From Dehalococcoidales bacterium (lineage in GTDB: Bacteria > Chloroflexota > Dehalococcoidia > Lucifugimonadales > Lucifugimonadaceae), in contig JAACCT010000016.1 in the NCBI GenBank assembly GCA_009937255.1, forward strand, positions 1 through 35,470: a stretch of DNA of 35,470 nucleotides, read 5' to 3'. Of the stretch, positions 9,848 to 17,965 are shown in pieces. Each line of letters opens with the position of its first letter. The first letter of the stretch is position 1. The notes under the pieces are model-generated. The model saw only the letters and a program-made list of their open reading frames with translations. It was not told the DNA's origin and made no database searches. A program made the position numbers and the translations under genes.

Positions 9848-10798
9848 TTACTTATTTTCTAAACAGTAATTATAAGCGCTCAATGCTGATATTGCCCCTT
9901 GAGATGCAGCAGTTATAGTTTGTTTCAAATTAGAACCATTCGTTATATCTCCAGCTGCATAAAGGCCATGAATATTAGTTTTTTGATCTTTATCAACAAT
10001 AACCTCATTAGTTATTTTATCTAGCTTAATTCCAAGTGATTTTGGAATTTCAATTCTTGGATCTGCTCCAGCTTCAATCATCAAACCGTCTATAGTAAAC
10101 TCTTTTTGATTCTCAAAATTATTTTTTAGTTGGATTTTTTCAAGACCTCCAAACTCACTACCAATTAATTTTTCAACACTATTATTAAGTATTATGTTAA
10201 TATTTTTAGTATTCTTCAAAGTATCAATTAATATAGGTTCTGGTCTCCAAAGTTTTTCACCTCTATAAACAAGAAAAACTTTTTTCGCATATTTTGCTAT
10301 TAGTATTGCACCTTCAACGGCAGCGTTTCCCCCACCAACTACTACAGCTAAATCTTTATTTTTATATAAAGGAGCGTCACATGTAGAGCAGTAAGATATT
10401 CCTTTACCTGTCCATTCTTCTTCATGCTTAAGCTCTAATTTCCTTCTTTCTCTCCCAATTGCTAGTATTACTGTCTTTGCAAAAAAACTTTTTCCTCCGT
10501 ACAGTTCACAATTAAATCCATTGTCTTTCTTTTTAAGTGAGATTAAATTATTCTCCAAAATAGGTACATTTAATTTTGTCACTTGGTTCTTAAATTCAAG
10601 CATAAGGTCAAAACCATCTATTTCTATATTTCCTGGATAATTTTCTATTAGTCCTCCTATTGCAGTTTCACCTCCAAATTCTTGTCCTACTATAACGGTA
10701 TTCATTTGGTATCTGGCAGCATAAAGTCCAGCAGCAAACCCTGCAGCACCTTGACCTGCAATCAGTAGATCTATATTTTCTTCTAGATTATTTGTCAT
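9848..10798 (-). CDS. trxB: Thioredoxin-disulfide reductase-like flavoprotein
   Basis: FAD- and NADPH-dependent dithiol oxidoreductase of the thioredoxin reductase family, 316 aa, the normal length. It has an FAD-binding GQGAAG (15-20), the redox-active pair CSTC (137-140, in ISYCSTCDAP), the NADPH-binding GGGNAA (155-160) and the C-terminal FAD motif GLYAAGDITNG near 278-288. The active-site spacing matches low-molecular-weight TrxB, where CATC is usual. No thioredoxin gene is adjacent, so the partner may be thioredoxin, a glutaredoxin-like protein or ferredoxin/flavodoxin; the last would usually lack the CxxC. It ends 1 base from the convergent DUF362 gene. Upstream lies a 387-base gap that contains a terminator-like structure on the same strand. 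Confidence 0.92.
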   Translation of the reverse strand: MTNNLEENIDLLIAGQGAAGFAAGLYAARYQMNTVIVGQEFGGETAIGGLIENYPGNIEIDGFDLMLEFKNQVTKLNVPILENNLISLKKKDNGFNCELYGGKSFFAKTVILAIGRERRKLELKHEEEWTGKGISYCSTCDAPLYKNKDLAVVVGGGNAAVEGAILIAKYAKKVFLVYRGEKLWRPEPILIDTLKNTKNINIILNNSVEKLIGSEFGGLEKIQLKNNFENQKEFTIDGLMIEAGADPRIEIPKSLGIKLDKITNEVIVDKDQKTNIHGLYAAGDITNGSNLKQTITAASQGAISALSAYNYCLENK

Positions 10799-10895
10799 AT
10801 TTATACTCTAAATAATAATAATTTATTTTAATTATATTGTTTTTTTCATAATTCTAAGTCATTTATAATAATAAATTATATTTTTTTTAAAAATT

Positions 10896-10960
10896 AAAAA
10901 AAATGAGCCTCAAAATATAATCTAAAGTGGATTAGAGAAAATATTTTTAATAGAGGCTCA
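10896..10960 (-). terminator. Intrinsic terminator (hairpin plus T8) upstream of trxB
   Basis: TGAGCCTC and GAGGCTCA (minus-strand order) form an 8-bp GC-containing stem followed directly by eight T residues. On the plus strand the same stem has no T-run, so the terminator acts on the minus strand. It lies upstream of trxB rather than after a gene, so it must end a non-coding transcript or attenuate the trxB leader. Confidence 0.6.
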
Positions 10961-10969
10961 AATATCCTG

Positions 10970-10992
10970 TACTAGAAAATTATTTTCTAGTA
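10970..10992. repeat. Perfect inverted repeat (11-bp arms) in the trxB-argJ gap
   Basis: TACTAGAAAAT and ATTTTCTAGTA are separated by a single base, giving a hairpin with an effective 3-base loop. It is the most regular palindrome in the intergenic region and lies within the structured minus-strand element. It could be an RNA stem or, as duplex DNA, a dyad operator. Confidence 0.6.
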
Positions 10993-11050
10993 GTCGGCTC
11001 ACTTTAATTTTACCATTTTATGCAAAAACAATCTGTGTTATTTTTTAAAT

Positions 11051-11079
11051 TTGGTTAGGTATCTAACTAACGCTATATT
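11051..11079 (+). promoter_or_regulatory. Candidate promoter of the arginine operon with internal dyad
   Basis: TTGGTT (11051-11056) and TATATT (11074-11079) are spaced by 17 bases, the optimum for a housekeeping sigma factor. An inverted repeat GTTAG-GTAT-CTAAC (11054-11067) overlaps the -35 box and spacer, where a repressor would block polymerase. It does not resemble a standard ARG box closely enough to be called an ArgR site. A second small dyad, CTCAAA-TATT-TTTGAG, lies in the leader at 11120-11135. Confidence 0.4.
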
Positions 11080-11119
11080 ATACTTATTGTTATAAAATAG
11101 AATTTGTATTCATGTTATT

Positions 11120-11135
11120 CTCAAATATTTTTGAG
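11120..11135 (+). repeat. Small hairpin in the argJ leader
   Basis: CTCAAA and TTTGAG pair around a TATT loop, about 50 bases before the argJ start. There is no T-run after it, so it is not a terminator. It could be an mRNA-stabilising stem or an operator half-site pair. Confidence 0.3.
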
Positions 11136-11185
11136 ATAATACTCTTAATTAAATAATTATAAATTATCAGTTTAGGGAGAGAGAA

Positions 11186-12400
11186 ATGAGTTCCGGTTTT
11201 AAGCATATAAAAAAAGGAAATATTTGTTCTGCAAAAGGATTTTTATCCGGTTCAATTTATTCAGGAATAAAATCTCCGGGACTTGAAAAAAAAGATATTG
11301 GAATAATATATTCTGAGCATAATTGTGTTAGTGCTGGAACTTTTACACAAAATTCGATTGTTTCACCTTCAGTAACTTGGACTAAATCAACAATTGATAA
11401 AGGAAATATAAGAGCGATTGTTGCTAATTCTGGTTGTGCAAATACTTCTGTTGGAGAACAAGGTTTTATAGATGCTAAAGAAATGGCTTTAATAACATCA
11501 AAAGCCTTAGATCTTGATTTAGATTCAGTTGCAGTTGCATCTACCGGGATAATTGGAGTAGAGCTTCCCATGGCTCTAATGAGAAAATATATTCCTCAAA
11601 TTGAAATTTCTAAAAATGACGGAAATGGTTTTGCTAGATCGATTTTGACCACCGATAAAAGAACAAAAGAAATGGCTGTCTCTTTTGATATTGGAGAATC
11701 TAAAGTAACAATTGGCGGTGTATCAAAAGGATCTGGGATGATTCATCCAAATATGGCTACTATGCTTGCTTTTATTACAACAGATATTGATATAAATGAA
11801 TCTATTCTTAAGAATGTTCTGACAAATGCTGTAAATAAATCTTTTAATCAAATTAGTGTAGACGGAGATCAGTCAACTAATGACACAGTGCTTATTTTAG
11901 CTAATGGACAGGCAAAAAATAAAAAAATAAATACAGAAGAAGAAGCTGAAACTTTTGCTAGTGCTTTAAATGAAGTATGTATTTTTTTGGCAAAAGAAAT
12001 TGCCAGAGATGGTGAAGGAAATACTAGATTAATTGAAGCAACTGTAAATGGAGCAAAGAGTCAAAAAGACGCAAATAAATCTTCAAGATCAATTGTTTCT
12101 TCTAACTTAGTAAAAACTGCAGTTTATGGTAGAGATCCAAACTGGGGAAGAATTATGATGGCGGTTGGTGCATCAGAAATAGAATTAGAAGAATCTAAAA
12201 TAGAAATTTTTGTCAATGATATTCAAATTGTGGCTGAAGGGAAAACTACTCCATATAATAATCAAAGTGTTGTTATAGCAATGAATCAAGATCTTATAAG
12301 GCTTACTGTAAACTTAAATATTGGTAAATCATCTGGAACTGCTTGGGGGAGTGAATTAACTGAAGAGTATGTAGTTTTTAATTCAGCATACACAACTTAA
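11186..12400 (+). CDS. argJ: Glutamate N-acetyltransferase / amino-acid N-acetyltransferase (ArgJ)
   Basis: Ornithine acetyltransferase of the cyclic arginine pathway. It transfers acetyl from N-acetylornithine to glutamate and may also use acetyl-CoA. The protein has 404 aa, as usual for ArgJ. The self-cleavage site is clear: GSGMIHPNMATMLAF with the A191-T192 junction, where Thr192 becomes the N-terminal nucleophile of the beta chain. The oxyanion-hole region STG near 119-121 and the C-terminal GRDPNWGR motif are present, as is TVNLNIGKSSGTAWGSELTEEYV at the end. The start is supported by a strong Shine-Dalgarno AGGGAGAG at 11174-11181. It leads a six-gene operon with argB 9 bases downstream. 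The presence of ArgJ implies no need for a separate argE. Confidence 0.97.
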   Translation: MSSGFKHIKKGNICSAKGFLSGSIYSGIKSPGLEKKDIGIIYSEHNCVSAGTFTQNSIVSPSVTWTKSTIDKGNIRAIVANSGCANTSVGEQGFIDAKEMALITSKALDLDLDSVAVASTGIIGVELPMALMRKYIPQIEISKNDGNGFARSILTTDKRTKEMAVSFDIGESKVTIGGVSKGSGMIHPNMATMLAFITTDIDINESILKNVLTNAVNKSFNQISVDGDQSTNDTVLILANGQAKNKKINTEEEAETFASALNEVCIFLAKEIARDGEGNTRLIEATVNGAKSQKDANKSSRSIVSSNLVKTAVYGRDPNWGRIMMAVGASEIELEESKIEIFVNDIQIVAEGKTTPYNNQSVVIAMNQDLIRLTVNLNIGKSSGTAWGSELTEEYVVFNSAYTT

Positions 12401-17012: not shown

Positions 17013-17667
17013 AGATATAGTAATTAGTGTATCTATTTTATCTTCTAATTTTAAAAACTTAGAAAAAGAAATTACATCATTAAACTTTTCTGGAATTGAT
17101 GAATTTCATTTAGATGTAATGGATGGCCATTTTGTAGATAATATATCTTTTGGATTGCCAATTATAAAATGTGTTAAATCACTTACTAACCTACCTATTG
17201 AAACTCATATGATGGTAGATGATCCATATGAGTTTATAGAGTCTTTTACTAAAGCTAAAGTTAATACTTTTACATTTCATATTGAATCAAAATCCAATAT
17301 AAAAGATACAATTTATTTACTTAAAGAAAAAAAAATTAGTATAGGCCTAGCACTTAATCCTGATACTCCTATATCTGCGATAGAACCATATATAAATGAT
17401 ATAGATAGAGTTTTATTTATGACTGTTTATCCTGGTCAAGGAGGACAAAGTTATATTATGTCAGTAAATGATAAAATTGATGAATTTACAAAAAAATATT
17501 CAAATAGTAATATATTAATTGGTGTTGATGGAGGAATAAAATTAGATACAATAAAGAATTCTTTTTTATCGGGAGCTAGGATGTTTGTATCTGGTACAGG
17601 AATTTTAAATTCTAATTTAGGTTATCTTGGAGTTGTAAAAGAGCTAAGAAAAACTATTTTAAGATAA
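17002..17667 (+). CDS. rpe: Ribulose-phosphate 3-epimerase (Rpe)
   Basis: TIM-barrel epimerase interconverting ribulose-5-phosphate and xylulose-5-phosphate, 221 aa. Motifs: SILSSNF near 12-18, EFHLDVMDGHFVDNISFG near 36-53 (metal-binding His and catalytic Asp), ETHMMVDDPYEF near 72-83 (His and Met loop), MTVYPGQGGQ near 143-152 and IGVDGGI near 173-179 (second catalytic Asp and phosphate-binding). All catalytic residues are kept. The start ATG lies inside the argH 3' end (11-base overlap), so it is the last gene of the arginine operon. Its 3' end overlaps rpmB on the opposite strand by 14 bases. The arg linkage has no obvious pathway logic. Confidence 0.95.
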   Translation: MENKDIVISVSILSSNFKNLEKEITSLNFSGIDEFHLDVMDGHFVDNISFGLPIIKCVKSLTNLPIETHMMVDDPYEFIESFTKAKVNTFTFHIESKSNIKDTIYLLKEKKISIGLALNPDTPISAIEPYINDIDRVLFMTVYPGQGGQSYIMSVNDKIDEFTKKYSNSNILIGVDGGIKLDTIKNSFLSGARMFVSGTGILNSNLGYLGVVKELRKTILR

Positions 17668-17866
17668 CCCCTTTTTTATCAAGAGTCCTAATTTCTCTTG
17701 CAGTCAGTTTTACTACATATTTTTTATCATCTATAGTGATGTTTCTCTTTTGAATATTGGGCTTAGAAATCTTTTGGGTAGCATTTAATGCATGTGATCT
17801 ATTGTGACCAAACAATGGCTTTTTTAAAGGACCTAACCCTAAATAAGTTCTTGGATTTACTGACAT
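17654..17866 (-). CDS. rpmB: 50S ribosomal protein L28
   Basis: Large-subunit ribosomal protein L28, 70 aa. The family core is visible: KPLFGHNRSHALNATQ (the GN-x-SHA motif), KPNIQKRNI and the C-terminal VKLTAREIRTLDKKG. In many bacteria the N-terminus has zinc-ribbon cysteines (C-x-x-TGK); here it reads SVNPRTYLGLGPL with no cysteine, so this is a zinc-independent form. It diverges from fakA across 99 bases, in the conserved rpmB-fakA-recG neighbourhood found in many Firmicutes and Chloroflexota. Its 3' end overlaps rpe by 14 bases. Confidence 0.93.
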   Translation of the reverse strand: MSVNPRTYLGLGPLKKPLFGHNRSHALNATQKISKPNIQKRNITIDDKKYVVKLTAREIRTLDKKGVILK

Positions 17867-17965
17867 TTTCTACTCTCGATAAATTATATGTTTTTATATA
17901 TTTTTTTATATATATATTTTTAACTATAGTTTATCATTGAAAACAATATTCTGAAATATTAATCC

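Follow-up and report, generated by a model that had tools for sequence, protein, structure and literature searches.

A structured element between trxB and argJ

Within the window, the whole 35,470-nucleotide stretch of DNA that was analysed, a trxB-like reductase gene (Pyr_redox_2; 9848..10798, minus strand) and argJ (11186..12400, plus strand) are separated by 387 nt (10799-11185). This is the largest inter-ORF gap inside the window when ORFs of at least 80 aa are counted, as a preliminary description of the sequence had claimed. The next largest gap (17668-17965) is mostly occupied by a 70-aa minus-strand ORF (17654-17866) whose product presumably resembles ribosomal protein bL28 (rpmB). The trxB-argJ gap holds a putative small RNA gene on the minus strand (10896..11000), the conserved unit of which measures 95-99 nt in six genomes; in the window genome only, trxB is its co-directional neighbour and argJ its divergent one.

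The predicted RNA starts at the G of GAGCC at position 11000, its structured part extends to 10903 and its 3' end is predicted near 10896, within a run of eight T residues (T8, 10896..10903) that follows hairpin 2 and resembles the tail of an intrinsic terminator (all features on the minus strand). Upstream lies an extended -10 promoter-like box, TGGTAAAAT (11007..11015), which reads TGRTARRAT in 6/6 copies. The invariant 5' end, GAGCCGACT (10992..11000), is mostly unpaired and complements positions 26-34 of a CAU tRNA. Hairpin 1 (10966..10997) has a core of 9-10 pairs at 10970-10992, including two covarying pairs, and hairpin 2 (10904..10960), the terminator hairpin, is formed by pairing of TGAGCCTC with GAGGCTCA. 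The apical block of hairpin 2, AAAATATTTTCTCTAATCCACTTTAGATTAT (10917..10947), is the same in the six copies apart from one extra T in G002 and carries a candidate recognition loop, TCCACT. Each motif named in the preliminary description is present on this strand: TGAGCC at 11001-10996, TGAGCCTC at 10960-10953, GAGGCTCA at 10911-10904 and T8 at 10903-10896. The perfect hairpin reported between the two TGAGCC copies also exists, with 10 pairs and a 3-base loop rather than 11 pairs.

On the minus strand the window element folds at -28.9 kcal/mol against a shuffle mean of -15.17 (sd 2.95; z -4.65), and 0/200 shuffles fold as well. The fold alone does not decide the strand because the plus strand folds nearly equally well (-27.2 kcal/mol, z -4.21); the minus strand was therefore chosen from the promoter box and the T tail.

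Conservation of the fold

From the six sequences RNAalifold predicts two hairpins, with 31 pairs in all, joined by a short unpaired linker. In this structure 98.9% of alignment cells are paired, compared with 35-49% for control structures slid along the alignment. The compensatory base changes by which the preliminary description proposed to check the structure are present in the relatives, with 3/31 pairs altered on both sides. Two of these are in hairpin 1, both through changes in G004, and one is in hairpin 2, where the pair is G-C in two copies and C-G in four; the arms read GAGCC/GGCTC in G000 (the window genome) and G002, GACCC/GGGTC in G003, G006 and G008, and GGCCC/GGGTC in G004. Both hairpins fold in 6/6 copies, and each copy folds better than all of its shuffles (z -4.2 to -6.0). 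Three covarying pairs were matched by 11/500 shuffles and the number of pair types by 106/500, two weaker measures that reflect a set of only six, closely related sequences, and the remaining three measures of structure were each matched by 1/500. The two-hairpin structure in the trxB-argJ gap is real.

The unpaired stretches are as invariant as the stems, with few or no changes in the 5' end GAGCCGACU, in the linker ACAGGAUAU or at the apex of hairpin 2. Invariant unpaired parts together with an invariant apex form the pattern that would be expected of an RNA that acts by base pairing or is read by a protein.

Predicted gene boundaries

Copies of the element share 0.85-0.94 of their bases (mean pairwise identity 0.90). 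Outside the RNA the mean falls to 0.62 over the 30 nt before it and to 0.50 over the 100 nt further upstream; on the 3' side it is 0.57 for the 12-nt tail and 0.54 for the downstream 100 nt. Individual pairs of copies range from 0.42 to 0.58 over the upstream 100 nt and from 0.49 to 0.58 over the downstream 100 nt, against means of 0.51 and 0.53, respectively, for shuffled letters (0.51-0.54 in all). TGRTARRAT, which is taken here to be an extended -10 box, stands 6 nt from GAGCC in five copies and 7 nt in one, so transcription would be expected to start at the first invariant base. Drift of the two bases before GAGCC is understandable since the start would fall after them.

At the other end, conservation stops at the terminator stem, which is found in 6/6 copies. 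The 3' tail is T-rich in four copies, as a continuous run in G000 and G008 and with interruptions in G004 and G006; it is weak in G003, and G002 has no T tract. A consensus terminator scan of positions 10000-12000, which accepts loops of 3-8 only, found none.

The copies are 95, 96, 98, 98, 98 and 99 nt long, with frame-shifting indels and no common start codon, and such indels across 95-99 nt speak against a protein product. Leader peptides were considered and rejected by reading the sequences: a ATGAGCCGACT frame is present in G004, G006 and G008 (GTG in G000) but is replaced by TAG in G002 and ACG in G003, and a TTG/GTG frame after AGGA varies in length between genomes.

Distribution among relatives

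Searching 60 related genomes at the DNA level gave matches at E <= 1 in 27, among them the six strong copies in G000, G002, G003, G004, G006 and G008; the five other copies are 85-92% identical to that of the window. A covariance model (R1) recovered one full-length copy per genome in 6/9 genomes of the genus (E 5.7e-22 to 6.0e-20) and nothing beyond the six in a 76-genome family set or a 250-genome order set, searches run with stricter filters and with at most 52 (family) and 15 (order) candidates scored per genome, so that weak relatives may be missed. Weak BLAST loci were rescored without filters (20/24 of L007-L030, leaving out L025, L026, L027 and L029, the last being the window itself), and the best reached 18 bits (E 0.11). 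A pattern scan of the genome contig collection returned 12 stretches, four of them known copies; among the other eight only L038 scored at E <= 1 (22.5 bits, E 0.02), and it was taken as a chance match because the pattern had preselected it. Allowing 3 mismatches, the pattern occurred in 9/76 family genomes, i.e. three beyond the six: L099 presumably lies in an ABC ATPase gene, and by eye no element surrounds the match in L095 or L096.

In a two-gene unrooted tree, each genus genome that lacks a match (G001, G005 and G007) has an element-bearing sister. G001 also has no match for either of two genes, one dnaN-like and one aldo/keto reductase-like, from the contig that carries the element in its sister G003, and a contig of G007 starts inside an acyltransferase-like gene that is near the element in G008; absence from G001 and G007 may be assembly loss. 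The tree of the element, built from six short sequences, groups G000 with G002, unlike the protein tree. As far as tested, the RNA gene family appears to be limited to one SAR202 (Chloroflexota) genus.

A candidate stand-alone small RNA gene

Comparison with Rfam, suggested in the preliminary description, gave 0 matches in the window at the gathering score (Rfam 15), and permissive scans returned only chance-level matches far under gathering scores. Ten below-threshold matches from the permissive scan included two bacterial sRNA families, ncr1241 and RsaE/RoxS (RF01820). The latter is a Gram-positive sRNA of similar length to the element, and its match, with 14.9 bits (E 2.2) where the gathering score is 79, is at chance level. 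Judged from its sequence, the element represents a family of small RNA genes that lacks an Rfam assignment.

Intergenic, trans-encoded small RNAs are a known kind of bacterial regulator, and the element resembles them in its length of about 100 nt, its stem-loops, its own promoter-like box, a terminator-like end in most copies, and the conservation of unpaired stretches rather than of neighbours. It differs from them in having no detectable Rfam relative and in belonging to a genus without Hfq above the cut-off (0/9 genomes; two sub-threshold matches contain internal stops). On this evidence one SAR202 genus is likely to possess in this element a stand-alone gene for a small RNA about 98 nt long, transcribed alone and acting in trans. 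It is probably a regulator, and trans-acting regulation is the most likely mode.

Under this model, transcription would run from the element's own extended -10 box on the minus strand, starting at the G of GAGCC. The resulting RNA of about 98 nt would fold into hairpin 1, an unpaired linker and hairpin 2, which, with the T-rich tail, would serve as an intrinsic terminator in most copies. Base pairing with other RNAs in trans would then proceed through the 5' end GAGCCGACU, the linker ACAGGAUAU and the AAUCCACUU loop, and would do so without Hfq.

SAR202 bacteria are widespread in the ocean, and no paper on their small RNAs was found by title in the open-licence literature. A conserved single-copy RNA gene would offer a handle on RNA regulation in small genomes that lack detectable Hfq or 6S, and its covariance model could be used on metatranscriptomes.

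The main alternative among stand-alone RNAs is that a protein partner would recognise the invariant apex of hairpin 2. A rival reading, judged unlikely, would make the element a protein-binding or housekeeping RNA in place of a base-pairing regulator; a highly diverged 6S-like RNA bound to RNA polymerase would be one example. Like 6S, it is a single-copy, stand-alone RNA gene, here with its own promoter-like box, and neither arm of the hairpin 2 apex varies, as in protein recognition. Furthermore, 6S (RF00013) was detected in 0/9 genus genomes, although this is a weak test, the control having been detected in only 6/14 genomes. However, 6S RNA is a long rod with a central bubble, whereas the element forms two separate short hairpins; the window has no match to RF00013, nor to any other Rfam family above chance level. 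Archaeal C/D-box guides were weighed and dropped.

Genomic neighbourhoods and a possible mobile element

The neighbours named below, other than trxB and argJ, are identified by reading of the proteins, without a family search. The element is located after a dnaN-like gene in G004, between flavoprotein-like and aldo/keto reductase-like genes in G003, beside a lipoprotein-like gene in G008, beside a 226-aa gene and an enolase-like gene in G006, and amid small variable genes in G002. Some surroundings overlap in part: G003 and G004 have in common the interval from the dnaN-like to a GMP-reductase-like gene, G006 and G008 have a 125-aa gene in common, in both cases with flipped orientation, and G003 and G008 share the reductase. 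Since the neighbours differ in every genome, conservation of the element is not carried by a neighbour. Small genes of one family, about 89 aa in length, turn up repeatedly in variable regions: close to the element in G002 (L086; G002:C5, 1917-2186 and 11490-11756) and close to the aldo/keto reductase-like gene in G000 (L093; G000:C79, 4360-4629).

A site that differs in every genome and is flipped relative to common neighbours could also mark a small mobile DNA element, either MITE-like or a single-strand hairpin cassette, in which the inverted repeats would be features of the DNA and the promoter box and T run incidental. DNA inverted repeats would covary too. Yet each of the six genomes contains exactly one full copy rather than several, and the terminal repeats are not preserved in G002 and G003. 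The unpaired parts are as invariant as the stems, and the conserved ends coincide with the promoter box and the terminator stem. An origin from phage or plasmid was also rejected, given that phage and plasmid collections hold no match to the element and viral contigs none to two exact element patterns. Alignment of the trxB-argJ gaps of four genomes (G000, G003, G001 and G004) resolved no boundaries for an empty site or a target duplication. A mobile origin is considered improbable, and the partly overlapping, flipped neighbourhoods suggest a gene that resides where the chromosome rearranges, not an element that jumps.

Candidate targets and the CAU tRNA

The complement of the hairpin 2 loop (AAAGTGGATTA) has 31 exact sites in the nine genus genomes, six being the RNA genes themselves, against 57 for the reversed control. 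Reading of 30/31 sites found no orthologous place common to more than two genomes, and hence no conserved mRNA target. The complement of the 5' end (AGTCGGCTC) occurs at 18 sites (reversed control, 4), comprising the six RNA genes, eight CAU tRNA genes and four unrelated sites. The only conserved complement of the 5' end is thus the anticodon arm of one CAU tRNA, present in 8/9 genus genomes (L107-L111, L118-L120) and identical at the complementary stretch in the genomes seen. ARAGORN calls this gene tRNA-Met; it would be elongator Met or Ile2, and is presumed not to be the initiator as it does not have the GGG/CCC anticodon stem.

Counted from the predicted start, five copies match the tRNA over 9 nt and G008 over 12 nt, and one or two further bases upstream of that start also match in G000, G004, G006 and G008. 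When the 9-mer is permuted, a match to at least one of 14 tRNA species arises in 77/20,000 cases, the tRNA set being partial, not drawn blind, and inclusive of loci fetched for the CAU match. When whole elements are shuffled, a run of 10, as in G000, is equalled in 17/500 and a run of 11, as in G004, in 6/500, the latter run including two bases upstream of the predicted start; a 9-base run is reached by 73/500 (G000) and 82/500 (G004), about 15%. Cofolding with the CAU tRNA gains -2.1 to -3.1 kcal/mol, which barely exceeds the gain with tRNA-Leu(gag) or tRNA-Gln(ctg). The complementarity is a weak lead, unsupported by hybrid energies. It is very doubtful that the RNA is an antisense regulator of the non-initiator CAU tRNA, with GAGCCGACU pairing to anticodon-arm positions 26-34 and so masking the anticodon or blocking modification of C34. 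If it were, such pairing would tune translation in a streamlined ocean bacterium.

Complementarity to a tRNA anticodon arm combined with a terminator-like hairpin is also characteristic of T-box leaders. The element has both, but it has no consistent downstream gene and its pairing would require the anticodon stem to open; the window has no T-box match at the gathering score.

Proposed competing stems and cis control of trxB

The preliminary description placed the element upstream of trxB and saw in it the layout of an attenuator or of a small RNA with a rho-independent end, the two TGAGCC copies competing for one arm. In such a trxB leader, alternative stems would choose between a stop at T8 and read-on into trxB. 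The geometry of the window permits this: trxB is co-directional with the element, T8 ends 97 nt 5' of its start codon and the first TGAGCC is able to pair with GAGGCTCA.

In the window, the stem formed by the first copy has a pair probability of about 0.0003, and a fold forced to contain it is 5.7 kcal/mol less stable. Nor is it kept in the relatives, where it shows 0 covarying pairs, sets G against G at its central pair in 4/6 copies and fails at its outermost pair in 2/6. The GAGCC core of the first copy is unchanged in the six copies, and the 3' arm varies with the second copy only. Because the second-copy stem flips from G-C to C-G intact while the first-copy stem mispairs in 4/6, the competing stem is rejected; as far as that proposed stem is concerned, mispairing in relatives and low probability in the window exclude the model. 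The second-copy hairpin is the predicted terminator stem.

The location does not favour control of trxB either. The gene downstream of the element differs in 6/6 genomes, with an ORF aimed at the element in G006 and G008, and since neighbours differ in every genome the element is not a cis leader. The position upstream of trxB holds for the window genome, whereas in the other eight genus genomes trxB and argJ also form a pair but the gap lacks the element, any copy being located elsewhere. Cis control of trxB was set aside on these element-free gaps and varied neighbours, and an attenuator or riboswitch in the trxB leader is extremely unlikely. Of the two layouts proposed, the attenuator thus fails, its alternative stem not being kept and its downstream gene varying in all six genomes, and the small RNA is supported by its promoter-like box, its covarying fold, its conservation as a single copy and, in most copies, a terminator-like end.

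The trxB-argJ gap itself is roughly 115-170 nt in G001, G003 and G004 (from tblastn ends), holds other sequence in G006, G007 and G008, and contains an extra dehydrogenase-like frame in G002 and G005. In the G006 assembly the trxB-argJ pair occurs twice (C17, L052; C6, L058) with nearly identical gap sequence, which suggests a strain mixture or an assembly duplication.
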